Assembly (NCBI GenBank): GCA_037176725.1
Contig: JAZBRS010000020.1
Coordinates: forward strand, 53,782,001-53,846,000
Source of the DNA: Posidonia oceanica
Taxonomy: Eukaryota; Streptophyta; Magnoliopsida; Alismatales; Posidoniaceae
DNA: 64,000 nucleotides
Direction: 5' to 3'
Each line of letters starts with the position of its first letter. Within the stretch, counting starts at the first letter, position 1. Shown piece after piece: positions 5,112 to 45,559 of this stretch. The position numbers and the translations under genes are program-made. The notes below the pieces were generated by a model. It searched no databases. It was not told the DNA's origin and saw nothing but the letters and a program-made list of their open reading frames with translations.

Positions 5112-5223
5112 TGTCTTATCTTTCCTTTTTCTCCTCGATTTTAAGCGTTTTCGAGTTGAGCCTCTTCCTCGGATCCAATCGCCGCTAAATCAGCGAGCCT
5201 GATTCCGATCGGGATCGCTACAG

Positions 5224-9157: not shown

Positions 9158-11668
9158 GTGCTCGCAGCACATGCTCCAGTCGTCATTGATTTGACCCTGG
9201 ACACCCATCGCGTCCCTTACAGCTACGCCACAGAAATGTGCGCGGAAGTAACGCGATCGGGGAGGGTTTATAGGCCCCCAGCACCGGCAACTAGGCCAAC
9301 TCACCCTAGACCTGTTATACCCCCACCCTCAGGCCAACCCTTAGCAGATCCAACCCCAGATCAGCCTGTAGTTAGCCAAATCCCTAGCCAACCTGTAGTA
9401 ACCCAGCTTCCTGTCACCACCCCTTTGGAACCTGCTAGAATCACCCCTCCAGCTGCTAGGAGAAGTCAACCTAAAGCAGACCTAACCTCCCAGCTTAAGA
9501 AGGTTAAAGCCGACATCTCCATCTGGGATTTGATCCACACTTCTGCCGAGCACCGCGAGGCTTTTCTTCGCGTGTTCCAGGCTGCTCGTGTGTCCCAGTC
9601 CATTGAGCCTTCTGCCTTGGAGAGCATGGTTGGGTTAATCGCGGAGCCCCAGGTCATCTCTTTTACAAGTGATGAGCTGCCTCCGGCAGGGATTAATCAC
9701 AACCAGCCCCTATTCGTCACGGTGCAGTTCAAAAATTTTCGCATTCCCCTAACACTGGTTGATAACGGGTCAGGCCTTAACGTCTGCCCCTTGCGTACGG
9801 CAACCAAGCTTGGATTCAAAGCCGAGGATATCACGCCAGCCGTGAAGGGAATGATTGCTTTTGACAACACTCACCATGACGCTCTAGGGATTCTGATTAT
9901 CCCTCTGGCTATCGGTCCGGTCGTCTTCGACGTAGAATTCTATGTCGTCGACTTGAAGCCTAACTTCAATCTTCTGCTTGGGCGCCCTTGGCTCCACAAG
10001 CATCAGGTCCTTCCTTCGACCCTCCATCGAATGATAAAGTACCATCGTGGCGATGATGTCATCGTCGTCATGGCGGAGAACTTTGAGAAGGAGCGGATTG
10101 AAGCAGTCTCTCCCGTGTCTTCGCAATCCATCCCGTTTGACCCCGAGACTTCTAAAGCCCTCTATCGCGTTAACCGGTGCGAGCCAGTTAACTTCGTTCC
10201 TGATCTTGAACGTGTCAACTCCTTGACCGTTCACAGCAACCCCTTTCGAATGGTCGAGAATGTATGTCACAGGTGGGGTTACATAAAGGGTACGCCGCTC
10301 GGGCGTCACGGCCAAGGGATCGCGGAGCCAATCGTAGCAGTGGAGCGAAGGAAATCTGAAGGCCTCGGCTACGAACCAAAGCTCAACGAAGATCACTGCT
10401 TCCAGCTCAAAGATCGTGCGCCAGCCATCCCCAGAGACCTCACTAACTTTACCAGTGCAGGAATTCTGGGATCAACCGACTACCAAGCCACAGCGCCGGT
10501 AGAGGATTGGGTGTGTATTGAGGACTACTACTCGGATGAGGAGCAGTCTGATGCAACAGAGGCAGTCCCAATCAACTCAGCAGAAACAGTGGTCAGAGCA
10601 GAGGCCCCACAGTCAGTTTATTTAGCTCTCCCTCTGGCAGAAACAGCAGGCAGCTCAGCAGGCCCTGTGGCAGATGCAAGTTCTCATCCTTCAGCAGCCA
10701 CATCAGCTCCTCAGGAACAGTCAGCAGTAGTGCAGGAGACAGAGACACTCCTCTTGGCAGAACCAAGTATGCTACCAGCGGTCACAGACACATCAGTGCC
10801 ACTGCCCCCATCTCTGGAGGGGCAGTCCATCAACTCAGTCAGCAGCGTGGCCCAGCCCGCCCCCTCAGCATCATCTTCAGGAATGCAGCTGGCGCAGTCC
10901 ACTCCGCATTCTCCTGACAACCTGCAGCAGTCATCATGGCAAGACCCTATGGCGTCAGAGGCTGCGCTCTCTCAGTTACGGCCCGATACAAAAGGCCAAC
11001 TGAGCACTACACTCTCCGGGCCCTTCAGCCCTCTGAAGAGCACCCCTGCTTACTCTCCGGCAGTGACCCTGGAAGCTTATCCATTAGTAGCACCGCTGGC
11101 CTGTCTATTTGGGCCTTCTACATCTGAACTGCCATCAGCGGACGCGCCCGTGAACCAGATCATGCAGACTCCAAGGGCGGCGATCCGTCTTGCAGCTGGG
11201 CCAGTGCCGCAGGCCCCCGGCGCCTACTACGTCGACTCCCCCTCAGACGAAAAAGAAGGAGTGGCGATAGAAGCCCAGGTCGATTCTTGGATGTCCGACT
11301 TAGAGTTGCTCTTTCAAGAACAGATCAAGTCGATAGCAGAAGACCTGGCAGACCATCAAGCTGCAGAAAGGAAAGGAAAAGCCGTAGTTACGGATCCTCC
11401 TCTGCAAGAGGACCATGCTTCTATCATGGTCCTAGAAGACTCAGCAGCACCGGACTCCCCTAGACCAGATGAGCTCATCACTCTTCAACCAGAAGGCGGG
11501 TCTAGGTGGTTTGTGCAACCCATGCCTCACCTGAGCAATGCATCGAGCGGCAGTAACCGGATCAGCCGCCAGTCCGGCATATCCTCCACGAGCACACTAG
11601 AAGACCCAGAGGGGGGAGCATCAGCAGTAGATGCAGCAGCAGCAGAGCAGAATGCCTCAACAGCCTAA
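9158..11668 (+). pseudogene. pro: Protease with G-patch-like motif and long linker, element 1
   Basis: The 836-codon stretch is open and in the same frame as gag, so it is the C-terminal part of a gag-pro polyprotein. A ThrProGln-rich lead-in precedes an aspartic protease with LVDNGSGLNVCPL (active Asp codon at 9761). Plant Tat proteases often have DNG in place of DTG/DSG. Downstream, about 10255-10380, lies a G-patch-like segment (GYIKGTPLGRHGQGI, then GLGYEP), as known after protease in several retroelements. About 370 residues of acidic and Ala/Ser/Pro/Gln-rich linker follow. It ends at TAA 11666. The RT that should follow is deleted. The protease cleaves the polyprotein during particle maturation. 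Confidence 0.85.
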
Positions 11669-11709
11669 GCAGCAGAACAGTCGGCAATTTCAGCAGCAGA
11701 ATCAGCAAG

Positions 11710-12606
11710 GCCCCTCCACATCAGCTGCACAACATGTCTTCGCCATGGCCTTTCTCCACCTGGGGGATCGATGTCATTGGCGCCATCCACCCTCCTGCTT
11801 CAAATGGTCATCGTTACATTCTGGTGGCGATTAATTACTTTACCAAATGGGTGGAAGCAGCCTCTTACAGGACAGTCACCGCTGCGGCAACAGAAAAATT
11901 TATCAGAAACAATATTGTTGCCCGATATGGGGTCCCGCACTCTGTCATCTCTGATAACGGCTCAAACTTCATTGCCAAAAGGATCGAAGAATACCTGCAA
12001 AGTCTCAAGATCAATCACCATCGATCCTCGCCCTATCGGCCACAGATGAATGGAGCAGTGGAATCTGCAAACAAGAACATTGTCAAGATTCTGAAGAAAA
12101 TGGCAGAAATCCACAAGGATTGGCATGATAAGCTCCCGTACGCACTCTGGGCGTACAGGACATCAATCCGGACCTCTACAGGAGCCACCCCGTACTCTCT
12201 GGTGTACAGCATGGAAGCGGTGTTACCTGTTGAAGTGGAAATCCCCTCTCTGCGGATCCTGCGGGAAGCTGAGTTGGAAGAAGCAGAATGGGTCGAAGAC
12301 CGCTGCATCCAACTGAACCTGATTGATGAGCGCAGATTGCAAGCCATGCACAACGCTCACTGCTATCAGAAGCGGATGGCCAGAGCATTCTTGAAGAAGG
12401 TCCAGCCCAGAAGCTTCCAGCCAGGGGACCTTGTCTTGCACGCCATTCATTTGCCTGACGGTCGAGGGAAATTCCGACCCAATTGGCGTGGCCCCTTTGT
12501 GGTCAAGCAGATCTTTTCGGGAGGCGCTGTAACCCTTGAGGATATGGACCATGTTGAGCAGTCCGAGCCCGTCAACCTCTGCTATCTGAAGAAATACTAT
12601 CAGTAG
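11710..12606 (+). pseudogene. int: Integrase catalytic core and C-terminus, element 1 (N-terminus deleted)
   Basis: Integrase inserts the cDNA into the genome. The frame opens at the deletion junction near 11710, continues through APPHQLHNMSSPWPFSTWGID and runs to TAG at 12604. The HHCC zinc finger is missing. The catalytic triad is intact: Asp in GIDVIG at 11770, Asp in SDNG at 11953 and Glu in VESAN at 12061. The 35 residues between the last two give the DD35E spacing. The C-terminal part has GKFRPNWRGPFVVK and ends KKYYQ, as in Tat integrases. It lies in a different frame from gag-pro (frame 1 versus 2), so the deletion was not in frame. The ATG at 11734 would give an open 290-residue product. 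Confidence 0.9.
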
Positions 12607-14091
12607 CCGAAAGCGGCCCCGTTGCAGATGCCCTTCTCCCACCTGCACTTGCATTCTCGCCTTCTTGCTTCACCTCTTTTCAAATCATCATCGTCATCCT
12701 TTCAGCTCTTGCACCCTTTCTTTTCGAATCATCATCGTCACCCTCTCAAGCATCACATCTTCTGCCCGGTGATGACAACCGGAAGTGCTTGCCTGCTCTG
12801 GAAAGAGTCACCCTGCCTCACCTGACACTACTTAGATGTCTTGGCAAGTGAGGGAGCCACCACCAATAAGGACAGGCGAACTGCCCAATCTCACAAGGAC
12901 ATACACCTCTGAGGGAGAAAAAATGTTAGGTTGTGAGCTTGAAAAAAGTGAGAATAGACATCTAGGTTTGGGCACGTCCAAGGAACAGAAGACGAAGACA
13001 GAAGCCGGCCCTAGAGATAGGGGTGTGCAGTCTAACCCTGCTCCTTCTACCCATCACACAGCAGACCCAAAGCCTAAATCCATTACAATTCAAGCACCCT
13101 TCTTTTGCCACCAGAATGGGGATAGCAAAAGCCTGAAAAAAAAAAAGAGGAAAAAGATCAAGCAAAAAAAAAAAAAAGAAAAAAGAAAAAAAGAGATAGA
13201 ACAAAAAACAAAAACAAAAAAGGAGAAAAGCAAGCAAAACAAAAAAAAAAGAAGAAGAAAAAGGCAAAGGTAGCCCAAAAAACACAGGCACCGTTATCCC
13301 CCATACTTTACTAGAGATCCCCAGCATGTCAAGCCTGAAAAAGGAGTCTACCACATCCTCCCAAGAGCAAACACATACCTCCTCCTAGCTAGGGGCAGAG
13401 AAAGACTGCATACCTATGAGGGAGAAACCTTTCAAAAAAAAAGAGAGCTGAAAGAATAGGTGTAGGTCCTGAGAGTGCAGCCAGTAGCCTGTCCTCACCA
13501 CATCACCACTTGTATAATGCCAACAACCTGTTCCGGAGCGCCACCAATAAGCCGAGAGTCTGAGTAGGGCCCAGTGAGTCAAGGACCACTCCCTTCCTCT
13601 GCAGCAGGCACCAAAGCACTCCGTACGCTGAGGGCACTCAAGCATCCACCCAAGCATATCCATCCATTCAAGCATACTTATTCATCCAATAATATTCATC
13701 CTCATAAGCATATCACTAGCATCTTGCATTCATGCATCTTCTTTCTTTCCTTTCCCCTTCCGTCAATCTCTCCGCTCTGCAACACGCTCAGGCCCTGAGG
13801 CAGTACTTCTCCCCAGCAGAGGCACATCGACGACACTCAAGCTGCACTGGTCCAGATTTCCTACCAACCTTCGCCCCCATGTCCGCAAGGCTGCTGCAGA
13901 ATCCCCCTGCTTATCAGTGCTTAATTGCTATGTTCTGTTATCACTTTGCCTAGATGCATATTGGAACTACATTTTCAGTCTCAGTTTCTGCTTGCTGTCA
14001 GTGATTACATACTTACGAGATCTGACTATTTATTGATAGTAGGTACCTTCAAGCCTTGCAGTAATCAGCCTGTCTTCTGCAATCAAGTATA
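12607..14091 (+). other. Non-coding spacer between integrase and the extra ORF
   Basis: It has clear homology with 46823-48312 of element 2. It contains purine-rich runs resembling polypurine tracts (GAGGGAGAAAAAATG near 12911; GAGGGAGAAACC near 13409) and an A-rich low-complexity tract at 13136-13265. Apparent Lys-rich ORFs (12836-13273 and its antisense) are products of that tract. I see no gene here. Confidence 0.65.
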
Positions 14092-15294
14092 ATGGGTTTT
14101 CCTACTCTGCTGACTCCCGCACATTGCTCGGAAACCCTGCGAGAGTGGATCGGCAGGCTCACTCAAGTAGACTGTGAAAAGCTGCGCCTGTGGGGCATAC
14201 CAACCAAGCTGCTAAAGGCTACTGATGTGGAGGTCAGCCGCCACCTTCTGTGCGCCGCCGCGAGATTCTGGAAGCCGACGCACCATGTCTTCCGTTTCAA
14301 CAAAACTGAGCTGACACCTACACTGGAAGAGGAGCGTCGGATATGCGGCTTTTCAAAGATCTTGGGGCCCCCTGTTTTCATGAGGCGCGACGGATATCTC
14401 CGGGTCCTGAACCAACTGACTGGGCTCTCCACTCAAGCCTGCCAACAGAACCTAATCTGCACCAGTGGACCAGAGCCTATGCTTCGCCTTGCATACTTTG
14501 ATGATATCTTGAACAAGCGCGCTGACCTCGGAGATGAGCTGTGGCTCCGAGGATTCGTCATCCGCTTTCTGGGCGAACTAATCTTTACTCATGGCTGACT
14601 GACAGTGGCCATCGAGGTCGCAGAAATTGCACTAGCTGTGGTGACCCAGCACATAGACCTGGCACCAGTCGTCTTGGCAGAGACTTATCGCGGGCTGGAC
14701 CGCATTTCTCATCGCTGCCGCCACTTCCACGGTTGCGGAGCACTCATACAAGTCTGGCTGACCGCGCACTTAGAGATGGACCTTCTGCGCCCTCAAGTGC
14801 ATGCTTTCGAAGCTTACTGCAGCAGCGCCTGTACCAGAGCAGACAAGAGCGTCAAAGACGAGTACGAGAGGCTGTCAGCACTGACTGACGATGCTGTAAT
14901 TTGGCGCATCATCCCCTCTGCAGCAGAGCCATTCACAATCTTCTTCAGCGCGCGTGACACGCGGCTGATCATTCTTCCAGGCTTCACAGAAGGCATAGAG
15001 TACCATCCAATCAGGGTCATGCGCCAGTTCGGCTTCCAGCAGGCCGCCTTCATTGACAGTACAGCGCCCGAGCTTCTACAGACTTATCCTCTCAGCACCA
15101 CTGCCCCAACCAAGAAGCTTGCTAGTCTGATGCAGCACGGGGTCCAATCTACAGACGTTGCAGCTGTGAGAAGTACTGGATGCACTCCTGATTATGAAGC
15201 CGAAGTCCGACAGCTCTGGCCAATCACTGAAGTCCCGCCAGGCGGCCCCCTATTCCCCGACTCTAGGCAGCCAAAGAGGGCCCGAGTTGACTAG
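14092..15294 (+). pseudogene. DUF7745-like extra ORF downstream of integrase, element 1
   Basis: A 400-codon frame is interrupted by a single TGA at 14596, most simply a decayed CGA. It starts MGFPTLLTPAHCSETLREW, and the same start is seen in element 2 at 48313. Features that match my memory of plant DUF7745/plant-mobile-domain-like proteins are FWKPTHHVFRF followed by ELTPTLEEE and ICGF; VVLAETYRGLDR with FHGCGALIQVWL; and IEYHPIRVMRQFG with Q two residues later. It ends PKRARVD, a basic tail that could serve nuclear import. Function is unknown. Being sense-oriented, 3' of integrase and shared by two elements, it is an accessory gene of this Tat family. No catalytic motif is visible. Confidence 0.7.
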
Positions 15295-15599
15295 GCCCTT
15301 GTGCGACCATCATGTGGTCTTCTTTCAAATTGTGTTGTACATTTCTGGCCTGCCGCAGGCGTTGTACTTATCAAGATCATATCAATGGAAACTGTTTCTG
15401 CTTTCTGCTTGCACATCAAGACTCTTTGCTGCATTGCATATCATCATCATCATTATCTTGGGCCCTCTAATCAGACTTGCAGACATCCCAACGCGGCGAA
15501 GTCCTCAGCACCCAATCCGGAGCCCAGAGCATCTACAGGCCCGCGACACCAAGCTCCGTTGTCCGGCGTCCCCAGCTGGTCATCCCCGGCTGGACCGCT
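15295..15599 (+). other. No gene seen
   Basis: Region following the stop of the extra ORF and leading into the tandem repeats. It holds a short CATCATCATCATTATC stretch near 15441 and nothing else I recognise. Confidence 0.5.
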
Positions 15600-16316
15600 G
15601 TCCTCTGCGGGCTGGCACCCCAAACTGCCCGGCGAAAGGTCCGTCAACCTGTCATCCTCCTCAGCTGTTCATCCTCAGTTGAGTCCCTTGCGGGCTGGCA
15701 CCCCAAACTGCTCGGCGATGGGTTCGTCAACCTATCATCCATCCACTCGCTTATCTATCTTTGCATCCTGATGCCAGGGGCGCATCGACCATCCCCCGGT
15801 ATCATCCTGATACAAGGGGCATCTTTTGGTCGCCCTGTGGTGTCATCCCCAGCTGATCGCCCTCAGCTGAGTCCCTTGTGGGCTGGCACCCCAAACTGCT
15901 CGGCGAAAGGTCCGTCAACCTGACACTCTTCTCGGCTGGTCACCCCCAGCTGAGTCCCCAGTTGATCACCCTCAGCTGAGTCCCTTGCGGGCTGGCACCC
16001 CAAACTGCTCGGTGAAAGGTCCGTCAACCTGACACTCTTCTCGGCTGGTCACCCCCAGCTGAGTCCCCAGCTGATCGCCCTCAGCGAGTCCCTTGCGGGC
16101 TGGCACCCCAAACTGCTCGGCGAAAGGTCCGTCAACCTGACACTCTTCTCGGCTGGTCACCCCCAGCTGAGTCCCCAGCTGATCGCCCTCAGCTGAGTCC
16201 CTTGCGGGCTGGCACCCCAAACTGCTCGGCGAAAGGTCCGTCAACCTGACACTCTTCTCGACTGGTCATCCCCAGCTGAATCCCTTGCGGGCTGGTACCC
16301 CAAACTACTCGTCTGA
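15600..16316 (+). repeat. Tandem repeat A, about 109-bp units
   Basis: Seven copies of a unit contain GCGGGCTGGCACCCCAAACT, followed by CGGCGAAAGGTCCGTCAACC and, in most copies, CTCGGCTGGTCACCCCCAGC. The four most regular copies (15877 onward) have periods of 108-110 bp. Early copies are diverged and are interrupted by the hairpin at 15770-15844. The antisense ORFs across it are repeat artefacts. Confidence 0.85.
15770..15844 (+). other. Nested stem-loop, copy 1
   Basis: The inner arms CCCCCGGTATC (15793-15803) and GATACAAGGGG (15809-15819) pair at 9 of 11 positions. Imperfect outer arms lie at 15770-15782 and 15831-15844. It has the same layout as the better-paired copy at 16352-16426, with an A-T pair here where that copy has G-C. 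Confidence 0.6.
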
Positions 16317-16351
16317 CAAGCACGACACTCTTGTCATCACTCTCTGCTTTC

Positions 16352-16426
16352 GATGCCAAGGGCGCGCTGGCCAACCCCTGGTGTCAACCCGACACCAGGG
16401 GCATCTTTTGATCGCCCCTTGGTATC
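16352..16426 (+). other. Nested stem-loop, copy 2
   Basis: The inner arms CCCCTGGTGTC (16375-16385) and GACACCAGGGG (16391-16401) are an 11-bp perfect inverted repeat with a 5-nt loop. The outer arms GATGCCAAGGGCG (16352-16364) and CGCCCCTTGGTATC (16413-16426) pair with one bulged C and one G-U. A further small hairpin (GTGACG/CGTCAC) follows at about 16447-16465. Confidence 0.75.
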
Positions 16427-16589
16427 ATTCTTTCCCTCTTTCCCCTGTGACGTTCCTGGCGTCACGGGATGATTTCTTCTCATCATTCCCTTATCCCTTC
16501 TTTGCCGGCCGATAAGTCCGATATCTTATCATTCTCATCATTCCCTCATCCCCTCTTTGCCGGCCGATAAGTCCGATATCTTATCAATC

Positions 16590-17273
16590 AACACTTCTCA
16601 TCATGATCTCATCCCCCTCTTTAGATTAATTTCTCATCATGATCTCATCCCCCTCTTTAGCTTAATTTCTCATCATGATCTCATCCCCCTCTTTAGTTTA
16701 ATTTCTCATCATGATCTCATCCCCCTCTTTAGATTAATTTCTCATCATGATCTCATCTCCCTCTTTAGCTTAATTTCTCATCATGATCTCATCCCCCTCT
16801 TTAGCTTAATTTCTCATCATGATCTCATCCCCCTCTTTAGACCAACTTCTCATCATGATCTCATCCCCCTCTTTAGATTAATTTCTCATCATGATCTCAT
16901 CCCCCTCTTTAGCTTAATTTCTCATCATGATCTCATTCCCCTCTTTAGCTTAATTTCTCATCATGATCTCATCCCCCTCTTTAGCTTAATTTCTCATCAT
17001 GATCTCATCCCCCTCTTTAGTTTAATTTCTCATCACGATCTCATCCCCCTCTTTAGCTTAGCTTCTCATCAGGATCTCATCCCCCTCTTTAGCTTAGCTT
17101 CTCATCATGATCTCATCCCCCTCTTTAGCTTAGTTTCTCATCATGATCTCATCCCCCTCTTTAGCTTAATTTCTCATCATGATCTCATCCCCCTCTTTAG
17201 CTTAATTTCTCATCATGATCTCATCCCCCTCTTTAGATCAACTTCTCATCATTATCTCATCCCCTCTTTGCCG
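16590..17273 (+). repeat. Tandem repeat B, 36-bp unit, 19 copies
   Basis: The unit is ATTTCTCATCATGATCTCAT plus CCCCCTCTTTAGCTTA, with few substitutions. Because 36 is divisible by three, one frame stays open through the whole array (16557-17309) as a 12-residue repeat containing SHHDLIPLF. GCCGGCCGATAAGTCCGATA motifs, each with a GATAAG/CTTATC hairpin, flank it at about 16507, 16559 and 17270. Homogeneity indicates recent expansion. Confidence 0.9.
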
Positions 17274-17520
17274 GCCGATAAGTCTGATATCTTATCATTC
17301 TCATCATGATCTTGCCCCCTCTTATCAATCAATCAATCACTCGTGCTAGGCTGATATCCGAAACTATCTCAGGCTGATATTCCTAAACTATCATCAATCA
17401 ATCACTCGTGCTAGGCTGATATCCGAAACTATCTCAGGCTGATATTCCTAAACTATCTTCTGGTCGATCCATGGTCGGCCCGCAGTTGTGTTATACGGCT
17501 GACATCCAGTAACTGTCCCT

Positions 17521-17628
17521 CGTAATTGCACTTTTCCAGTTGATAGGTCTGTAAACTATCCGCCGGTTGACAGGACCGTAAACTGTCGCTCCAGTTGATA
17601 GGTTTGTAAACTATCGCGTGCAATTACG
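17521..17628 (+). other. Array C module 1 (multibranch stem)
   Basis: The arms CGTAATTGCAC (17521-17531) and GTGCAATTACG (17618-17628) are an 11-bp perfect inverted repeat. They enclose three hairpins (GATAG, GACAG and GATAG types). Confidence 0.8.
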
Positions 17629-17658
17629 TTATACGGCTGACATCCAGTAACTGTCCCT

Positions 17659-17789
17659 TGCAATTGCGGTTTCCAGTTGATAGGTCTGTAAACTATCCTC
17701 CAGTTGATAGGTCTGTAAACTATCCACCGGTTGACAGGACCGTAAACTGTCGTTAGGCTGATACTCCTAAACTATCACCAGCAATTGCA
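17659..17789 (+). other. Array C module 2 (multibranch stem)
   Basis: The arms TGCAATTGC (17659-17667) and GCAATTGCA (17781-17789) enclose four hairpins (two GATAG, one GACAG, one GATA). The arm core GCAATTGC is self-complementary, so this module alone is weaker evidence than the others. Confidence 0.65.
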
Positions 17790-17819
17790 TTATACGGCTG
17801 ATATCCAGTAACTATCCCT

Positions 17820-17954
17820 CATCATTGCGCGTTTCCAGTTGATAGGTCTGTAAACTATCCGCCGGTTGACAGGACCGTAAACTGTCGCTCCAGTTGATAG
17901 GTCTGTAAACTATCCGCCAATTGGTAGGACTGTAAACTACCACGCGCAATCATG
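17820..17954 (+). other. Array C module 3 (multibranch stem)
   Basis: The arms CATCATTGCGCGT (17820-17832) and ACGCGCAATCATG (17942-17954) pair at 12 of 13 positions. They enclose four hairpins, including the GGTAG/CTACC variant. Confidence 0.75.
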
Positions 17955-17984
17955 TTATACGGCTGACATCCAGTAACTGTCCCT

Positions 17985-18113
17985 CGCAATGCCGTTTCCA
18001 GTTGATAGGACTGTAAACTATCCTCCAGTTGATAGGTCTGTAAACTATCCGCCGGTTGACAGGACCGTAAACTGTCGCTCCAGATGATAGACTGTAAACT
18101 ATCCGGCATTGCG
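17985..18113 (+). other. Array C module 4 (multibranch stem)
   Basis: The arms CGCAATGCCG (17985-17994) and CGGCATTGCG (18104-18113) are a 10-bp perfect inverted repeat. They enclose four hairpins. Confidence 0.8.
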
Positions 18114-18143
18114 TTATACGGCTGATATCCAGTAACTATCCCT

Positions 18144-18221
18144 CATGGTTTGTGGCTTCCAGTTGATAGGTCTGTAAACTATCCACCAGTTGATAGGACT
18201 GTAAACTATCCCACAACCATG
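18144..18221 (+). other. Array C module 5 (multibranch stem)
   Basis: The arms CATGGTTTGTGG (18144-18155) and CCACAACCATG (18211-18221) pair over 11 positions with one bulged T. They enclose two GATAG hairpins. Confidence 0.75.
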
Positions 18222-18327
18222 TTATACGGCTGATATCCAGTAACTATCACTCACAACTGCCTCCGGTTGACAGGACCGTAAACTGTCACTCCCGGTTGAT
18301 AGGACCGTAAACTATCCAGTAACTATC

Positions 18328-18384
18328 TTTTTTTTTTTTTTTTTTTTTCTGCGTGACCTTGTCTCAGGAAGACAAAGTCACGCA
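18328..18384 (+). other. Poly(T) run followed by a strong hairpin
   Basis: Twenty-one T residues end array C (18328-18348). The arms TGCGTGAC-C-TTGTCT (18350-18364) and AGACAA-A-GTCACGCA (18370-18384) then pair over 14 bp with one C/A mismatch around a 5-nt loop, CAGGA. Confidence 0.8.
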
Positions 18385-18818
18385 CCCCCTTTCTGCAATA
18401 GGAGAGTTGGCCTCTCTCCCCTCGCGCCCCTTTCTCTTCTCTCTGCGAGCTTGCTCCCCGGGCGGGGACCAGCTGCACCCTGTTTTCCTTCGCTTTGTCG
18501 TGCAAGTCTGGCCTCCCTGCCAGATATTCGCACCACATCGCGCCTTTTTATCATTTCTCCTGCATCATCTCTGCACTTTCTTAGCTAGCACTGCATATCA
18601 CTTTAGCATCATCAGTATCACTTGCACAGCATCAGCATTTTCTTATAGCTGCACTAACTTTTATACTAACTCTTGCATGGCATTTGCATCAGCATGCATA
18701 CACACAGCACAGCATCCATCTGCACTGGCATCTTGCATTGCGGCAACGGGCTACGATCTTCGGTGCATCCGCCGAATAAGTAGCTCACGCCCATAGCAAA
18801 CCGCTGCTCCCGTCGGTC
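18385..18818 (+). other. No gene seen, pre-PPT region
   Basis: The region is pyrimidine-rich, then rich in CATCAGCATTTGCAT-like words. I recognise nothing else in it. The short ORF at 18353-18796 is unsupported. Confidence 0.5.
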
Positions 18819-18902
18819 AGATGGGGTGTCTTGTCAACCCTGAGCAGCGGCCGCGCTCTGCTTGCCCTTGCTCAGGGAGGGGCATCTGTTGACACCCCAT
18901 CT
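18819..18902 (+). other. Inverted repeat around the PPT and LTR start
   Basis: AGATGGGGTGTC (18819-18830) is the exact reverse complement of GACACCCCATCT (18891-18902) inside the LTR start. CCCTGAGCA (18838-18846) is the reverse complement of TGCTCAGGG (18869-18877), which overlaps the PPT. Together they fold the PPT/U3 junction into a long interrupted stem. Confidence 0.75.
18874..18882 (+). other. Polypurine tract of element 1
   Basis: AGGGAGGGG followed by CATC lies directly before the TGTTGACACC start of the 3' LTR at 18887. Its role is to prime plus-strand cDNA. Confidence 0.85.
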
Positions 18903-21900
18903 TGGCAGGCCCGGACCCTTGGAGCCCTCTTGGTGATTGCTGGATCAAACCCCAACCAAACCCTAACCCTAATCCTCCTCTCTACCCTTCAAAATCAGCC
19001 TGTTTTGACCTAAACCTTTACCCCTCTTCCCAACCTCAAAACCTAACCAAAATCCATAGGAAAATCCACCACTATCCACCCAACAAGCCTACCCAAAAAC
19101 CTAGAAATTTCCAAACCTAACCCAATCCCAAAAACCATAGAAAACCTAGGTGAAACTACCCTTTTTCTACACCTTGAAACCCCTCCAAAACCTCCTTAGA
19201 ATCAAACCAAAACTTTAGAACCAACACTTCAAACCCTAGACTACCCACTCAGCAATTTTCACCGAGACCATTAAGACCCTCTTTCACCCAAATTATCCTT
19301 TTCTCTCTCCGGGATTATCATTTTCTCTCTCCTCTCTCTCTCCTGATTATCATCTCTCTTTTCATCCCTTTCTTATCCTTTTTCTGGTCTGGCTGTGGGC
19401 CCCCTCTGTGCCTCTATCCTTCCTCTATCTTATCCCTATTTTTACTTTATTTTTAACACTTTTTCTGAATTTTAAAAAATTGTTTTCCTCCAACCTATCT
19501 CTTTTCCTCTTATCTCCCTCTTTTTTCCATTTCTTTCTTCCTTCTCTTTTTCTTTTCTCCCTTCTGCAAAAATCCACAAAAACCCATAAAAATCTGTAAA
19601 ATCTCAAAACACAAAAGAAGCAAATCAGAACCCTAAGAAAAACAATTAAAAATATATTAAACAAGCTATTAACAACTTAAACTTAACTAAATCAAGTTAA
19701 AAGAAAAACCAAACATGCAAGCTAAAAAATGCAAAACAAATCAAAAGAAAACACTGAAAAATCAAGGAAAAAACTAAAATGAGATCTAAACCCAGCAAAA
19801 GTAAAGACCCCACTAAAAGAATTAAAAAACAAACCCTAAAAAAGAAGGATTAAAAATCAAACACTAAAACAAGTAATTAAAGAAGGCAAAAGACTTAACC
19901 TAATAAACATAAGAAAAACAAGTTAAAAACTTAATTAAAAAAGAAGAGAAAAACACATCTGAAAGACTTGAAAACACTCTATCAAACCAGAAAAAAACCA
20001 ACTAAAAAACTTCAAGGAAAATCAACAAATAAAAATCAAAACATAACTTAAAAGACTTAAGAAGGAAAAACCCTAAGAAGACTACAACTTAAAAATCTAA
20101 AAAACATCCTGATTAATACGAAATTAAATCCTAAAAAATCCAAATTAACATCCTAGTGTCCAGCAAGGGAAATACAATTTTTAAAGCAATTTAAAAAAGG
20201 TTTAACAAACATTTAATCAAGTGAAAACCAATTAAAAACAAAACCAAAGCCCTAAAACCCTAATCAAGCCCAAAACACATTAATCAACTCAAAATGACCA
20301 TTAAAAATCTTAATTAAAATCCTAACCTGCAGCACAATCCTTCTGGCATTTTTATTTATTTTTAGTTTATTTTTACCTATTTTATTTCCCCATTCTACCC
20401 TCTCTTTCTTTCTTACTTTTCTTTTTCATTCTTTCTTTTCTTTACTGGGCTCAATCCAGCCCGTTTCCTTTTTTCTTTTATTTCTTTGTTTTTTTCCTTC
20501 AGCCCGCACGGTCCGGCCCACGCCCCTCCGTCTTCCTCCTTCTCCTTCTGCAGATTTTTTCTGCAGTTCTTCCCGCGAGCGGCCGCCTACAGCCTTCCCT
20601 CCATTCAAATTTTGAGCTTCAATCCAATCGTCTACAGCAGCCCGCCGTCTCCACCATCTCAGCACCAAATCCGGAGCTGGTCGCCTCGCCGTCTCCTCTG
20701 CTGCAGTGGCCGCCGCGGATTTCAAATCTCCCAGTGCGCCAGCAGCCTCCCCTTCACCAGATATAAGCCTCCTCCGTCTTTCCTTCATAAGGCGAGAGAG
20801 AAGAGAGACCGAGCGAGCAACCTTCACCTTCAGAGCGAACTCAGAGTGACCCTAGAATCAAACCCAATTCAGAGAGCCATTTCCACTCCTTCTCTTCCAC
20901 CTGAAACGACTCATCCCTTTTCTTCTCTGTCTCCTCCACTTCCAGAAGAGAGAGTGGTCGGAGAGAGTGGTCTGAACCTTCATCTTGGTGCCCCGGAGAG
21001 AGACCCCAATTCCCCAGCCTTCCTTCAGCAGCCACCACCCATTCCCATCCAGAAACCTCCAGCAAAGCCTCCCCTTCCTTTTCCACTGAACCAAACCTGT
21101 TCCCAGCCTCCACCCTTTTCCCATTTGCCTCCCCAAACTCACCCAGCACCCAGCCTTCGTCTCCCGCCATCCCACGGCCATTCCACCACCTAAAACCTCC
21201 CAGAAACACCCTGAAGCTCCAACTGCAACCCAACCACCTCACTTCACAATTCCCATCACCTCAGCATACAGCCTTCTCCCAAAATTCACCCAAGTATCCA
21301 CCAAACCATCACCTTCCAGAAGCACCAAACATCAAACCTAACCCTTTACCACAGCCCCAGAACTCCACTACAAACACTTGAACCACCTTCTGTCCAGAAA
21401 TCAACCATCTCTCCAATTTCACTCCACAGTCTCCCAAAAGCCAATCCGACCACCCAGAACCCTTCGCCGGACCTCCAGCAACCTCCCGGAGGGTCCCATC
21501 CAGCCTGAGGAGCAGCGGACACTCCCCCCGGCCTCCGGCTGCCACCTTGCACCCACAACCTACCAGATCTCCCTCCAGTCTTCGCAGCTCATGTCTGACC
21601 ACCTGGGAAGCTCCGGAGGATCGTTCTGAGGCGACTCCAGCGCTCGCGAGCAACGGACGACGCCCGCAGCGACCGGACGGCCTCCACCGGCGACTACTGA
21701 GGCCACCGACGTCGGGAGGACATCTCAGACGCGGACAATGGTAAATCTTCCTTCCCTTAGCCTCCTCTTCCTCTTCTCTTGCTTCCCCAGCCTTTAGAAT
21801 AGGTTTTCTGGCCCCCCTGTTCCGTTTCGACTCGCCGGTCCGGTCGTCTTCCCCGGCGACGTTCTCCGGTCTTCGCGACGATTCAGCCAACGGAACGCGA

Positions 21901-24784
21901 CCCCTGTGATCCCCGGAGCTCCGCACAGACGGCAGGAGACTCCTCCGGTCTTCAGAACGCAGCTCCGCTGCGTCGAGCGGCCGGACCGAGTTCCAGAAGT
22001 CCTGCAGACCTCCGGCGAGCATTCTGGCGCGTTCCAGGCATCGTCGTCCCTCGCCGATCGTCGCCCTGCCTCCGTCAGCCCCAGAAGCAGCACCTCCGCC
22101 CTCCCGCGCGTCTCCAAGCCCCCTGTGCCGGCATTCATGGGCACTGGCAGCTTGCTGCTACAGTGCCCATGGCTGCCGGCTTTTACTGTGTATTTATTTT
22201 GTCCTAGCTAAAGTTTTTAGGTAAATATTGCATATTTGGTTTAAGTTTCTGTCATTTTACATTCTAGTCCTTATTTCATTTAATCTGCTGCATTTTTGAA
22301 TCAAAATCATATTAAATTGCATGATCTGTTTATGGTTTTCAGTATTTGCAATTTGGTCCATTTACTGTGCTGTGCTGTTATTTAATTTTGCAGTTTAGTC
22401 CCTCTGTTTTCGATTTTTGCACATAGGTCCTGTCTTAAATCAGTTCATTTATTTGCATGCATTTTGCCATATTGCATTGCATTTCAGGTCCCTGCATGTT
22501 TCTGATTTTGCATGTAGGCCCATGCACTGTAGGAACTTAGCTTTTATTTTCTTATTTTGCATACTGCATTGCATTTTTTACCTTCTGCCTTTGCATATTT
22601 GCATTTAGGTCCATTTTAAATGGACAGTAACTCTTGCATGCATTTTTAGCTTATTGTATTGCATTTTCAACCCTGTTTTCTTCAAAAATTGCATTGCAGT
22701 CCTGTTATCTGATTTTCAGAGCATTTTTTCCATATAAAATTGCATATTTGACCCCTGCATGATTTGAAAATCACACATAGGTCCTTGCATCTTTTAAAAA
22801 ATCATGTGAAAAGACCATTTTGCCCCTAGGTTGCATCCTAGCTCCTATGCTTACCAAATTGCATATAGACCCTCCACTAGTATTCCCAGACTCCCCAGAA
22901 CCCTGTTTTCTGGAAAATTTGCATTTTAGACCCCAGTTTTCTTAAAATTGCTTTCTGATCCCTTTCTGCTTTCAAAAACCTCTTTCAAAGCATACCCCCT
23001 TTTCAAAACAGCTTTCTGAGCCTAGTTTTTTGCAAAATGGACCTCTGTCCTCTCCTGTTTTCGAAATCCTTTCCTGTGGACCCCTGTTTTCTGGAAAATT
23101 TGCATTTTTAGCCCCTTTCTTTTTCAAAATGTTTTCTGAAATCCTGGTTTTTTCCCAGTTTCTTCTCTTTGCTTTTTCTTGCTTTTGCACGCATCCTGCA
23201 TCCATCTAGTCTTGCATTTTAGCATCTTCTTGCACACACCAAGCACTTTTAGCTCCCCTTCACCTGGGAGGACCTTTTTGCACACCCCTAGGACCTCCTG
23301 AACACCTAGATCTATTCTTCTCCCCTGTTCTGGCCCTTCTACCTTGAAGCTGCGTTATCTTCCAATCCGGCCGTTGGATCTTCTCAAGTAAGCTGCCCAG
23401 GCGACCGCAGCGAAGCGCCCTTCAGCATGGACCAGACAGATTTCAGATCAGGCTCCCGGATTTCCAGGTATGTCCTCCTGAACCCCTGCATTGCATTCAT
23501 TTGCATGCCATCTGCACAGTTTTCCTTGTTTTCGCTTTCTGTCTCTTTGAGCATGTAGAATAGGGCCTCCCCTTTCTACTTCTATCTCCAAATCCTCGTT
23601 TCGCATATCCCTGTGTGTTTTGTGTTGAGTTTTCCCTGGATTTATCACTTAATGTGACTTTCTTCCCCCTTTTTCACGATCCGATTGCATCGCAAGCTTT
23701 GGGCAGCGTGCGAGACACACCGTGGATCGGTTTAGCGGGAAACAGTCGCAAAGAGGTGGTAATCCATCCGTTTGCACACTCTCCTCTCCGTAGGTCTTCA
23801 CACCTACTCTGAGCGGTCCTAAACGACGTCTGTTCGTACACACACGTTGTTTTGCCTCCCCTTTGGCCTCTTCTGACCTTTTTCTGCATTCTTGCATTCG
23901 CATGGCTTTTCCGAAGTTTTTGCTTCGCTGTTTTGGCACCGTTTTGCGTGCCCTTCTGTTCTCTTGCCTTGTTTTGCGCGCAGCCTTGCTTTCTCTCTTG
24001 TTTTACGTGCCGCTCTCGTTTTTGCACCGTTTTGCGTGCTGCCTTGCTTTCTCGCTTGTTTTGCGTGCCGGTTTTGTTCTTTTGCTCTGTTCTGCGTGCC
24101 TTGCTCTTTTCTCGTCTAGTTTTGCGTATTTTACGCCGTTTTCCCTTGCATGCTGACTGCATTGCATGGTTTCCTCGTCGTTTTGCTTTCTCGCCTGCAT
24201 TTGCATATAGGGCTGTGATGCTTACTGCCCGGAGTTCTCACGAGCTAGGTTTCGCCTGGTTCGGAACACAGACAGCGTAGCTGAGCATTTAGAGAGCACG
24301 TTTACTTCCTTGCTTTGTTTCTTCCCACTTAGAGCACACCTTGAGCATTCATTTAGGCATTTATAGGCACATAGGCATTCAATCCTGCATTTTCCTGCGT
24401 ATGCGAGCGTAAGCCTAGAAAGACCGATTCTCGGGCGTGTCGGGGGTGCCTAACACCTTCCCCACGCGTAACAGGAGTCCTTGCCCTGTCTTCTGGCCCG
24501 CAATGACCGTACTGCTTTTATCCTAGGCTAGAGTCATCTCATTTGCATTTGTTTGCATTTGTTTTCCTTTGCATTGCTTTGCTTTGCATTTCTTGCTCGG
24601 TTTTGCGCGTTAATTCACGCATTTCCTCGGTTTTCCTTGTCTCCCGTTAATAGACATGGTGGCGACTCTGATTTGTCTTATCTTTCCTTTTTCTCCTCGA
24701 TTTTAAGCGTTTTCGAGTTGAGCCTCTTCCTCGGATCCAATCGCCGCTAAATCAGCGAGCCTGATTCCGATCGGGATCGCTACA
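18887..24784 (+). repeat. 3' LTR of element 1 (complete, 5898 bp)
   Basis: It starts TGTTGACACCCC and ends CTACA (TG...CA). From 19592 on it is nearly identical to the 5' LTR. The first 700 bp (a CCTAACC-rich stretch, then CTCTCT-rich) are seen only here and in elements 2 and 4 in diverged form. It contains the intron-like segment 23468-23793, the minisatellite at 23926-24150, the conserved block at 24417-24486 and the PBS-like relic at 24660. The 3' flank begins CTGGT. The matching 5' target copy is outside the window. Confidence 0.93.
23468..23793 (+). other. Candidate intron in the 3' LTR of element 1
   Basis: Same ends as 3878-4203: CCAG/GTATGTCC and CCGTAG/GTCTTCAC. Confidence 0.35.
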
Positions 24785-25612: not shown

Positions 25613-26374
25613 CCTCTATCCCCGTATTTATTTGTCATTGCCATGTAGACACACACGGCCCTCTTAGAGAAAGTGGAACTGGAGGGGGAGCTCAAGCAAC
25701 CGTCCTGTGGCACAACTTTCGTGTCGCACATAATATTTGCTGATGATCTCCTGGTGTTCCTTCAAGCAGATAAACAGAACGCTCGTCGACTGAAGTCTAT
25801 CTTGGAGGAGTTCTCAACTCTATCTGGACTATCCATCAACCTTCAAAAAAGCACGGTGTACTTTCAAGGTCAGGTGAAGCATCGGCGCTGGATCACATCG
25901 CACCTGGGTCTGAGAAGTGGTGAGCTTCCAGTGAGATATCTTGGGCTGCCGCTGTTGTCGAAGAGGCTCTCAGCCATTGAATGTGAACCTTTAACTCAGG
26001 CGATTACGTCGCGTCTGCAGTCGTGGAAGGTGAGATTCCTATCCTATGCCGGTCGTGTGGAATTGATCCGCTCGGTACTCCTATCCATGCATCTGTATTG
26101 GACCTCTATTTTCGTTCTTCCTGCAAGTGTTCTCCATGCGATTGACCGGTTGCTTCTCCACTTCCTGTGGTATGGTTATGGTCATCGGAAGTTAGTATAC
26201 ATATCCTGGAAGGATGTGGCTTGCCTTAGAGAAGAAGGAGGCTTGGGTATTCGAAGCCCGGGTGATAGCAACAAAGCGGGTGTCCTTCGTCTTCTGTGGG
26301 AGGTGGAGACGAATAGAGAGGCCCTTTGGGTGAAATGGGTTCGCTCCAAATATCTCTGTGGAAGTTCCATCTAG
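25613..26374 (+). pseudogene. LINE B reverse transcriptase, C-terminal part
   Basis: The reading frame begins PLSPYLFVIAM right at the LTR junction, has a TAG at 25646-25648, then is open from 25673. The catalytic motif is FADDLLVF. It is followed by LSGLSINLQKS, LPVRYLGLPL and SWKVRFLSYAGR, the standard plant L1 RT/thumb series, and GGLGIRS. The frame ends at TAG 26372 and resumes in another frame. It would make DNA from LINE RNA by target-primed reverse transcription. Confidence 0.88.
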
Positions 26375-26990
26375 TGTGCTCGGCCACCACAGAAAGCTTC
26401 TTGGGCTTGGAGGGGAATACTCTGAATTAGATCGTTAGCTGCCGACCTTCTGCAATACAACTTGGGGGATGGTCTTACGTTCAGCTTCTTCATGGACCCA
26501 TGGTTGGGTCACCCTCCGATCCATCTGCGCAATGGTGACCGGCTCTGCCGGGATCTAGCTTGTGACAGGCTCTGCAATGTGGGGACCTTCATGGTTGGTC
26601 ATCGCTGGAACCTCCCCACTCCCATGACTTTGGATATGCACGAGGTGTGGTCGGCGATCCATGCTACTCCGATTGTATCTGGTAGTGACTCCATCACTTG
26701 GATCCCCTCAAGTGATGGGTTCACATATCACTCTGCTTGGGAGGCAGTTTGCCATTGAAATCCTAAAGTCCCCTAGGCTTCTCTTATCTGGAATGGTGGT
26801 GCTGTCCCTCGCCATGCTTTCTGCACCTAGAGGGCACTTCGGCGAGGTCTACCCACTCACGACAATCTTCAGCGTTGAGGCTTCGTAATCGCCTCTCATT
26901 GCATACTGTGTTGGAATGCTGTGGAGACGGTTGATCACTTGATGTGGTCGTGTGTGTATGCTAGGCAGGTGTGGTCTGAATTGGCTCCTC
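26375..26990 (+). pseudogene. LINE B zf-RVT region (frameshifted)
   Basis: Fragments in different frames give LGDGLTFSFFMDPWLG (26462-), an open stretch to 26758, then ALRRGLPTHDNLQR and CILCWNAVETVDHLMWSCVY. That cysteine/histidine set is the zf-RVT domain found after RT in plant LINEs. Stops and shifts show decay. Confidence 0.8.
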
Positions 26991-27612
26991 AACTCAGTGT
27001 GTCGGAGATTCCGGAGTCTTCATGCCTGCTAGACGTTACCTTTTTCATCAACTGTCGGTTTCAATAGATGCATGTCTCGAAGCGACTCCAGCACTGTGTG
27101 GGTCGCACCTTCTGTGGAGTAATCTCCGGGATATGGACGGAGAGGACCTAGCAAATTTTTGAAGACATGCACCGACCCATCACTCTGACCATGCTCTGTT
27201 TTGAGTTGAAATCGTTTTAGGTGGAGAGGATGGGTTTTTGAAATATTTTGAAATCTTTTGAATTTTGATGGCATCCGTGGGGCTATTGGACCGAACTCTC
27301 TGTGTACGTGCATGCAATTAGGAGCCTTTTTCTACTCGTGTTATTGGACTGGGTTCAGGCCTGGTTGCTGCCATTTTTCTCTTTTGGATTAGGATTGTTT
27401 ACAATTATGGCTTGGTATGGGATTGGGCCAAATCTGTATGGTTTTGGGTGGCCGATCTGGTTTAGCTTGGGCCTATTTCCTTATGTTTTGAGTCTGTACT
27501 CTTGCTATGGGTCTTGAGGTGGGCTCTCTAGGACCCATGGCATGCTCTCTGTATAGTTTCTTTTTAATATTACTTAGAGGGTCTCCCTCCTTTCGCTTGG
27601 CAAAAAAAAAAA
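26991..27612 (+). other. LINE B 3' UTR and poly(A)
   Basis: No coding potential. It is GT-rich in its second half (27300-27530) and ends with the L1 family 3' signature and poly(A). Confidence 0.7.
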
Positions 27613-29420
27613 ATAATCCACTTATGATCAAAACGATAGCTAAGCATCGCATCACAGATGAAATGTCGATTGATGGAGTCAAAAGCTTTGCTCAAGTCCA
27701 ATTTAATGCACATCCAAGGCCGTCCCTGGTTGGAGTGAAGTTTATGGCATAACTCATGAGCCAGTAGTATCGAGTCATTGATTCTTCATCCCTGAATAAA
27801 TGCAGTTTGGTTCAGATCAATCAGCCTAGGTAGAAGTGGCTTAAGCCTGTTAGCCAGAAGCTTGGAGAGGATACGATAAACAACATTGCATAGGGCAATT
27901 GGGCCATAATCGTCCAATGTAGCAGGGACCGTCTTCTTCAGAACTAGACAAATGAGGGTGTGGTTAACTTGAGCCAGAAGTTTACTTGGTCTAAGAAAGT
28001 TGTTTGCTGCCGCAAGTAAATCCTTAGCAATGACAGGCCATGCAGCTCTGTAGAAAGCTCCATTGAAGCCATCAATGCCAGGAGCACGGTTGGGGTTTAG
28101 ATACTTAATAATCAAATTGAGCTCTTCCATAGAAGCAAGAGTACAGAGAGAGTAATTGTCCTTGGCAGTAATAGATGCTTGAATCAGATGCTCTGGGAAA
28201 TTGCTGCTGCTATGGCACTGATTGTAGAGTTGTTTGAAATGACTCACAAACAAGCTGACAATGCTGGAGTTGTCCTCAATGGTGTCACCATCCACCTCAA
28301 TAGCATGAATTGTGTTCCTATCCCTCCTAGCTCTAATGGAGCCGTGGAAAATTCTAGTGTTTACGTCCCCTTCCTGGAGCCAGCGTATGTGGGACTGCTG
28401 TCGGGCCTTCGATTCCTCCTACCAATGAAGCTCAGTGAGTTGGTGACGGTAATTCTTCTCAGCTTGGAGCAGAGTAGAACTAGAGGGATCCTAAATCAAA
28501 GCAACTAGAATAGCAGCAAGAGAGCACGTACAAGTTTCAATTCTGTCAGACACATTACCAAAGGTCTTCCTAGCCCAGGGGGTAAGTTGAGCTCTGATGT
28601 TGGCAAGCATCTTAGAGAAGTGGAACATAGGATTGCCATTAATCTGATAACGCCAATATTTAGTCACCAAAGGGAGAAAACTAAGATGAGTAGCCCAATG
28701 GTTATAGAACTTGAACAGTCGGTTGGGACACCCTTTGGAAGCATCACTCAGATGTCTCGAAGCGACATGGGCACCACAATTTGGAAACTGAGACATACAG
28801 CTCAGAGAGATGAGGGCTCGATCTAGTCTACACAGAATAGGAGAGGTATGGTTCATATTACTCCAGGTGCAAGCAGAGCCTGTAGTAGGCATCTCCACCA
28901 GAGAAGCATCTTCAATGAAAATGTTAAAGTCAGACATTGCTGAGGCATTGCTAATCGTCGATCCCCGTTTCTTAGAGATGCTGCAAATGCAATTGAAGTC
29001 TCCAGTAAGGATCCACGGGAGTGATGGTTGGTGTCTGAGAAAGTCCTCCCAAAGCTGCCATCGAGAAGATGCATCATTAGCTCCATACACAATAGAGAGG
29101 ATGAACCTTGACTGATTGTGGTGAGAAGACCCTTCTAATTGAATGAATTGGGTAGATTCAGCAAGTTTATTGAGTGTAACTCTGTGCTTGTTCCACAGCA
29201 CCAGAATTCTCCCTAAGGGATTAGAGGAGTTGTTATCAGTGGCCTCAAAGCCATACTAGTGCCTATTGACGATTTGATCCAGATCCCTCTTGAGCTTATG
29301 TTCCAGTAAACATATAACATCACAGTTTACTAGGTGAGTGTAATCCCTAATTGCACGGAGTTTCCCACCATTATTTAAGCCTCAGACATTCCAGCATAGA
29401 ATCAGCATGGAGGATCGGGA
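27613..29420 (-). pseudogene. LINE A ORF2: APE endonuclease and N-terminal RT
   Basis: The endonuclease begins near 29415 with LILCWNV, a stop, then GLNN, and CLLEHKL (catalytic Asn and Glu positions). It continues in the open stretch 29201-28491 with LTGDFNCI, TWSNMN and LDRAL. The normal SDHSP end motif reads RHLSDASKGC here, so the catalytic His has become Ala. After a frameshift, 28295-27786 carries RAPGIDGFNGAFYR, a diverged Leu-rich segment, and DDYGPIALCNVVYRI with LIDLNQTAFIQG: RT blocks 0-3. The frame continues to KAFDSI and HKWI at 27613, where LINE B cuts in. Multiple shifts and stops make it inactive. Confidence 0.85.
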
Positions 29421-43262: not shown

Positions 43263-43299
43263 AGTAGATAGAAGAAGTTGCTAGGACGGAGGTCACGCA

Positions 43300-45004: not shown

Positions 45005-45104
45005 TGAATATCAGCCACTCCAGACGTAGTTCCCAGATGAAGACATTCTGTTTGCAATGGAGGACTCTGAAGAGAAAGACCCTGAAGATCAGGAGAAATG
45101 GTAG

Positions 45105-45480
45105 TTATACTTTGATTGTGCTGTAAACAAAAAAGGCCGAGGCATAGGCGCTGTGCTGACAACGCCTTTGGGACAGATGATTCCCTTCGCCAGGAAGCTG
45201 ACCTTCAGATGCACCAACAACGAGGCAGAATATGAGGCATGCATCCTAGGACTGAATGTTGCCCTCGAGCATGAGGTGCAGGTGCTATTGGTGCATGGCG
45301 ATGCTATCTGGTGATTTCTCAAGTCAATGGCGAGTGGAAGACAAAAGATCCAAAGCCACTGCCATATCATGAACACCTGCTGAAACTGATAGAGCAATTT
45401 GCGAGCATCCGCTTCACATACATGAACCGAGCAAGGAACGCATACGCAGATGCGTTAGCAATCCAGGCGTCCTGCCTCAG
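45105..45480 (+). pseudogene. Second, archaeal-type RNase H of element 2
   Basis: LYFDCAVNKKGRGIGAVL, TNNEAEYEACILGL, HGDA and, after a one-base shift, ISQVNGEW and NRARNAYADALA. These supply the four acidic active-site positions (Asp, Glu, Asp, Asp) of an archaeal-like RNase H. Its presence after the ordinary RNase H is a hallmark of the plant Tat lineage. The frameshift lies near 45302, and a TAG at 45102 precedes the domain. Confidence 0.85.
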
Positions 45481-45559
45481 CATACCTAAAGACAGCACAG
45501 TGGATGTATCTATTACTCGCATAGAGCAGCCTGCGCACTGTATGAACATTGAAGAGGCA

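Follow-up and report, generated by a model that had tools for sequence, protein, structure and literature searches.

The question raised by this locus is whether a tandem array of small inverted repeats in the genome of Posidonia oceanica has been kept in a form that folds and, if so, which process has kept it. The array lies at positions 17342–18327 of a 64,000-nucleotide stretch of contig JAZBRS010000020.1, which we refer to as the window, and an earlier note had proposed that matched changes between the arms of 29 stem-loops point to selection on, or gene conversion through, a folded form. The original observation stands and reaches further than first described; two levels of pairing, a crossing helix in most units and closing stems around groups of units, are absent from the earlier note. 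We consider it highly probable that a folded form has been kept, and the argument below concerns both the evidence for this view and the process responsible.

To judge from its sequence, the element that bears the array is a Tat/Ogre-like Ty3/gypsy LTR retrotransposon, probably a non-autonomous one. Its 3' LTR (18887–24784, + strand) begins with TGTTGACACC and ends with GCTACA; its 5' LTR starts before the window and ends at 5222, and the two are 98.3% identical over the part inside the window. Matches above cut-off to Retrotrans_gag and rve are found in the element, with the paired LTRs around them. The integrase ORF (11734–12606) has relatives with ~61–62% identity in Gossypium, Trifolium and Theobroma and nearer ones, with 72–82% identity, among metagenome proteins (in both cases among the best 120 of 3126 matches). 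At the place that corresponds to 11650–11725 (+ strand) a neighbouring element has ~2.8 kb of extra sequence (43135–45941) that includes RT, and the RT piece of this block (44187–44789) has no second match anywhere in the window. We read the array-bearing element as non-autonomous because this block is missing, and any helper-dependent copying of such an element would need signals in cis.

Between the integrase and the 3' LTR the element contains ORFs with plant mobile domain and DUF7745 matches (14092–15294), followed by 109-bp repeats (15846–16284), 36-bp repeats (16595–17269) and the array; the tandem repeats lie between 15846 and 18327, in a long non-coding region ahead of the LTR. The array itself lies in this non-coding tail; its three + frames contain 29, 23 and 21 stops, and its longest open stretch is 48 codons. 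A run of 21 T (18328–18348, + strand) abuts its 3' end, a hairpin with arms at 18350–18364/18370–18384 (+ strand) comes next, and 560 nt in all separate the array from the 3' LTR. In the same tail, a repetitive 250-aa frame (16557–17309) runs across the 36-bp repeats and stays open because 36 is a multiple of 3; its sole Pfam match is weak and under the cut-off. Arms at 18821–18830/18891–18900 (ATGGGGTGTC/GACACCCCAT) could form a hairpin that takes in a purine-rich stretch together with the first part of the 3' LTR, and a second arm pair (18838–18851/18864–18877) is nested within it. Further along the window, 30931–64000 contains two more related elements, whose LTR-like starts lie near 30931 and 53720; the first of the two includes an additional LTR-like 3' piece (48676–49614), which suggests nesting. 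The stretch 25673–29201 has an RVT_1 match at 25673–26374 (+ strand) and minus-strand ORFs whose appearance suggests a LINE.

A direct scan of 16401–18400 yields 32 units, 29 in the array and three upstream. Those in the array have exactly complementary arms of 4–5 nt, occur within 17342–18327 and span 17353–18316. By arm type, 20 are GATA(G), eight are GACA(G) and one is GGTAG/CTACC, which is identical to the count in the earlier note, and local pairing is possible in 29/29. Three designs are found, namely long (n = 18), S (n = 6) and R (n = 5): the GATA(G) arms belong to 12 long, five R and three S units, the GACA(G) arms to five long and three S units, and the GGTAG/CTACC arms to a long unit. 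The loops, previously given as 7–9 nt, measure 8–9 nt if the long units are credited with their fifth pair. Four R units with GATA/TATC arms lie at 17353–17368, 17376–17392, 17418–17433 and 17441–17457; the same scan places S linkers with GACA/TGTC arms at 17501–17517, 17639–17655 and 17965–17981, and S linkers with GATA arms at 17800–17816, 18124–18140 and 18232–18248 (all + strand). The upstream units, of the same style and on the same strand, have GATAAG/CTTATC arms and are found at 16511–16530 (with crossing CGG/CCG), 16566–16585 and 17277–17296 (with CGG/CTG). The density of hairpins in the array is more than chance, with 25 perfect 5-bp hairpins with loops of 8–9 nt in 17300–18330 against 110 in the whole window outside 16400–18400. 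For the GGTAG/CTACC unit at 17923 an exact partner is found only within that unit, so the matched change there is local.

The units are in turn enclosed by a second level of pairing. Five modules of 2–4 units each have their own closing arms of 9–13 nt, and one further stem of 9 bp closes all five, with its 5' arm (GCAGTTGTG) at 17482–17490 and its 3' arm (CACAACTGC) at 18252–18260; the module arms, which form long-range inverted repeats, begin shortly downstream of an S linker and stop immediately ahead of the following one. All coordinates are on the + strand. Module 1 (17521–17628) has arms 17521–17531/17618–17628 and long units at 17542, 17569 and 17597. Module 2 (17659–17789) has arms 17659–17667/17781–17789, long units at 17679, 17706 and 17733, and an R unit at 17760. 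Module 3 (17820–17954) has arms 17820–17832/17942–17954 with one C.C mismatch, and long units at 17841, 17868, 17896 and 17923, and module 4 (17985–18113) has arms 17985–17994/18104–18113 and long units at 18004, 18031, 18058 and 18086. Module 5 (18144–18221), with long units at 18165 and 18192, has arms 18144–18155/18211–18221 that contain one bulged T; because of the bulge it was missing from the list of inverted repeats and was added from the letters, and its stem is present in the minimum-energy fold of that module. Two long units (18269–18287 and 18298–18316) follow 3' of the outermost stem. In the ensemble of the whole array, pair probabilities are close to 1 throughout the stems of modules 1–4 and the outermost stem, except at their end pairs.

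The arms share their flanks (CCCT before, TTCCAG inside and TTATACGG after), and therefore the modules are homologous; the arms nonetheless differ between modules. When the six 5' arms are combined with the six 3' arms in all 720 ways, the matched set ranks first with −96.3 kcal/mol, ahead of −83.0 for the runner-up and a mean of −47.3; for the five modules alone it likewise ranks first among 120 pairings. For base-by-base comparison we counted from the window letters 45 cells, that is, nine in-register positions in five modules, with the bulged T of module 5 omitted. The 5' arm departs from the commonest state in 11 of them and the 3' arm in the identical 11, with no one-sided change; ten of the doubly changed cells are paired and one is C.C. 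Watson-Crick pairs occupy 44 of the 45 cells, a number reached by none of 100,000 within-position shuffles (mean 29.4), and when states shared among modules are merged, eight of nine are paired. These tests treat the modules as separate and are weakened by shared descent. There are no G.U pairs among the 63 cells of the closing stems, which would be unusual under selection on RNA. We take the matched changes in the module stems to be the strongest evidence in the case. It is mainly these changes, with the same 11 of 45 cells altered on both arms and none on one side, that make selection on a folded form, or copying by way of one, the best reading. The earlier treatment of the 29 pairings as independent is not supported.

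The long units contain a further helix. CAG(T) just 5' of the first arm complements (A)CTG in the loop, units with CGGT have ACCG in the loop, and the order of the four strands makes such a unit a candidate H-type pseudoknot with loops of 1–2, 1–2 and 4 nt (TAAA). A crossing helix of at least 3 bp whose first loop measures 1 nt or longer occurs in 23 of the 32 units (3/3 upstream, 3/5 R, 17/18 long and 0/6 S), including the R units 17376 and 17441, where it is AGG/CCT. It is weak and has no first loop in the six S units, and is absent from units 17353, 17418 and 17923. Its stack sums range from −4.2 to −7.9 kcal/mol per unit. A blind scanner detects 18 candidate pseudoknots on the + strand of the array against a mean of 0.69 and a maximum of 4 in 100 shuffles, and 3 on the − strand against a mean of 0.93 and a maximum of 5. 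Among the perfect 5-bp hairpins with loops of 8–9 nt, a crossing helix on the + strand accompanies 18 of the 25 that lie in the array but 4 of the 110 outside it; on the − strand the corresponding numbers are 3 of 25 and 1 of 110. As the units are mutual copies, these counts speak for the presence and strand specificity of the crossing helix and not for the number of its origins. The units would fold as small pseudoknots or switch between two hairpins. The description of the units as plain stem-loops is probably incomplete, since a second, crossing helix varies in a matched way and the units stand inside closing stems.

The strand specificity bears on the suggestion that the stretch acts as DNA, either through cruciforms or as paired half-sites for a DNA-binding protein. 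Closing stems free of G.U and arms that are symmetrical on both strands would suit this explanation, but plain binding sites are expected to hold their letters rather than change in pairs, modules of 78–135 nt make poor cruciform loops, and only one strand gives the crossing helix loops of a workable length; we regard a role as DNA as very improbable.

Within the units, covariation is less telling. The 29 pairings had been presented as so many cases of maintained pairing, but they do not count as independent evidence: the 18 long units reduce to 7 distinct 24-nt cores, with one inferred change per variable column in a tree-aware test. Pair counts were made on these 18 units as 12 distinct rows, in which all cells of helix 2 (the arms) and 87.5% of those of helix 1 (the crossing helix) are paired, and pairing falls to 25–46% when partner columns are slid by 1–3. 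In eight cells both sides have changed, where shuffles give 2.7 (0/500 reach 8), and matched change is present both in helix 1 (AU in eight rows, GC in four) and in helix 2. Two of the five measures fail to favour structure, namely the number of pairs in which both sides have changed (3, with 2.0 in shuffles; 132/500 reach it) and the further pair types (4 against 5.9; 500/500). Covariation over the repeat phylogeny, which the earlier note had named as a check, is not significant in the long units alone: on a tree-aware null that is home-made and not R-scape, and with the gap of unit 18086 shifted by one column, the two best covarying pairs, one in each helix, have E = 0.92. When events are counted, the product is 1.7e-7 if the search is confined to the named helices and 7e-5 if any helix of at least 3 bp is allowed, on the presumption of independent lineages and with closing-stem cells taken from arms picked as paired. 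Unit 18298 combines the variant CGGT/ACCG form of helix 1 with the common GATAG/CTATC form of helix 2, so the two helices vary apart. U.U faces are common in the outer pair of helix 1, where 5 of the 12 distinct rows are unpaired, and the residual states of the unit helices (two that read G.U on the + strand, in 17597 and 17277, and one A.C, in 17923) are too few to decide. The more independent evidence consists of the few double changes within units together with the module stems, neither of which the earlier note reported.

These results can be set against the simplest alternative, an ordinary hypervariable tandem repeat in which chance palindromic variants of the monomer spread by duplication and pairing is not maintained. 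Such arrays are common in Tat elements (available parts of PMC7004042, PMC11963269 and PMC3305785), and the lack of significant covariation in the long units alone and of an energy excess in the array speaks for this alternative. Against it stand the arms, which differ between modules and yet match within each, and a Watson-Crick count beyond the reach of every shuffle. Arm pairing and the module-stem counts already disfavour it, and we consider it improbable.

The energies are as follows. In comparison with shuffled controls, which had been proposed as a check, the array has no excess stability in sixteen windows of 120 nt (mean z −0.07 on the + strand and 0.07 on the − strand; 40 shuffles each), and as a whole it has a weak excess (z −1.84; 0/20 shuffles equally stable). 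Seven units folded singly give z from +0.76 to −1.76. Windows at 15.3–16.6 kb have a mean z of −1.51 (+) and −0.62 (−) with 40 shuffles each, and those in the stretch 3' of the array −1.26 (+) and −1.20 (−). Strongly negative values flank the array (15300–16600 and 18281–18580) and reach −5.1 at 16361–16480 on the + strand. Two homologous hairpins are found on this upstream side, at 15793–15819 (GGTATC/GATAC, two mismatches) and 16375–16401 (GGTGTC/GACACC, perfect over 11 bp), both inside CCCC...GGGG, and they present a further matched difference of A-T to G-C.

In a nested model that omits the crossing helix, all five modules have rod-like minimum-energy folds, and the modular design falls short of these in stability by 4.8 to 11.6 kcal/mol; stacking of the crossing helix might close the gap. 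The rods suggest another explanation, that the transcript folds into long rods that serve as, or decoy, a Dicer substrate and yield small RNAs. Large internal loops interrupt the rods, however, and the matched change in unit 17923, which pairs exactly only with itself, is local, so that we give this explanation little credence.

The main rival invokes a mutational process: a strand being extended by reverse transcription or DNA replication would switch onto its own complementary arm, one arm would be rewritten as the complement of the other, and pairing would be kept without function or selection. According to one argument, template switching both generates hairpins and preserves them through matched changes in the absence of selection (PMC8794818, in the part available), and abnormal strand transfer has been proposed for the 3' tandem repeats of Tat elements (available part of PMC7004042). 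The absence of one-sided changes from the 45 module-stem cells and of G.U from the 63 closing-stem cells also fits such correction well. Against it, the C.C cell and the bulged T are unlike a corrected stem, one switch cannot correct both crossing helices of a unit, and crossing helices on one strand only are left unexplained. The sense-only crossing helix, the C.C cell and the bulge fit selection on RNA better, and we consider hairpin-templated correction possible but rather doubtful.

Searches for relatives leave the case resting on a single copy of the element. Blastn of 16401–18400 against the rest of the window gave three matches, all between the T run and the A-rich 13154–13194, and the other elements in the window contain no sequence similar to the array. 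The unit pattern matched 13 stretches in IMG/VR with one site each; because the same 119 nt surround every site, we rejected them as one shared phage-contig sequence without an array. The S-unit pattern had no match in IMG/VR, and the integrase protein and integrase alignment gave 8 and 19 candidate stretches there, none of them a relative; against genome contigs the alignment found one 31% relative, in a contig of 5.4 kb. The array had no match among plasmids. An Rfam scan of 15800–18900 found nothing at gathering score and nine matches up to E = 10, including RF04326, the plant virus exoribonuclease-resistant RNA (17.3 bits with 31 needed, E = 3.5, − strand, 18191–18235). No tRNA-like family is among the nine, nor is any ribozyme family, and a resemblance of the R units to a hammerhead core was set aside.

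Our leading but unproved reading is that helper-dependent replication has placed the sense RNA under selection, and we hold it slightly more probable than otherwise that the folded form was kept by selection on that RNA. According to this reading, the units would sit in a branched scaffold of five closed modules and an outermost stem, and the repeated motif would act through its many copies, offering multiple binding sites to a protein provided in trans, of which the Gag or RT of a helper element is the most likely; an RNA without RT would thereby be recruited, protected and copied. The parts of this proposal differ in strength. That the sense transcript of this non-autonomous Tat/Ogre-like element has in the array a structured RNA domain of this kind is a tentative suggestion, less probable than not; that it serves as a platform for helper proteins is possible but more doubtful; and the full version, in which compensatory change has preserved a branched 3' domain with about twenty pseudoknots in tandem and a helper can thereby capture a copy that lacks RT, is unlikely as it stands. 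If true, the maintained fold may explain the mobilisation of RT-less copies, and the array would be a testable case of RNA selection versus template-switch correction inside one sequence. If some Tat 3' repeats hold a maintained RNA fold, they become candidate cis-acting signals of these very large elements.

Known systems resemble the array in some respects and differ in others. In the 3' untranslated regions of alfalfa mosaic virus and ilarviruses, arrays of coat-protein-binding hairpins form a many-site protein platform; several like hairpins are present there, with short single-strand linkers, and closing stems such as those found here are not known from them. The 3' UTR of TMV contains three consecutive pseudoknots whose structure rather than sequence matters for replication (PMC4683447, available part). 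This upstream domain resembles our candidates in that H-type pseudoknots follow one another near the 3' end of a plant RNA, within its 3' UTR, but it has three beside a tRNA-like end, whereas the array has ~18 candidates by the scanner in closed modules of a retroelement, with a T run, then a hairpin and then the 3' LTR downstream of it; no homology is claimed. The tandem pseudoknots of furoviruses, considered as another comparison, were dropped, the accessible part of PMC5382211 containing no description of them.

Among LTR retrotransposons, yeast Ty1 has a 5' pseudoknot of which disruption of either stem lowers the helper-mediated transposition of a mini-element, and Ty3 has two potential pseudoknots (PMC5454406 and PMC11381356, respectively, in the parts available). 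Ty1 is similar in that a pseudoknot in the RNA matters for helper-mediated transposition, but it has one long-range pseudoknot at the 5' end with stems of 7–8 bp, in contrast to many tiny candidates at the 3' end. Our literature search found no tandem pseudoknots in a retrotransposon and, among the matches listed, nothing relevant on structured 3' tandem repeats in LTR elements, most subscription papers lying outside its scope; a packaging or replication signal made of repeated pseudoknots is a kind not met for LTR retrotransposons among those matches.

The hypervariable 3' regions of these elements are reportedly the subject of a 2009 paper in Gene. Tandem repeats between the coding region and the 3' LTR are usual in Tat elements (PMC7004042, PMC11963269 and PMC3305785) and seed satellite DNA (PMC7004042). 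In these three texts the terms "hairpin" and "secondary structure" are absent, as is "pseudoknot" from the two that were checked for it. The repeats of the Tat/Ogre/Retand group, including the Gmr9/GmOgre minisatellites, occupy the same place as our array and are likewise tandem and composed of interleaved families, but they are described as DNA repeats, and maintained pairing and closing stems lie outside that description.
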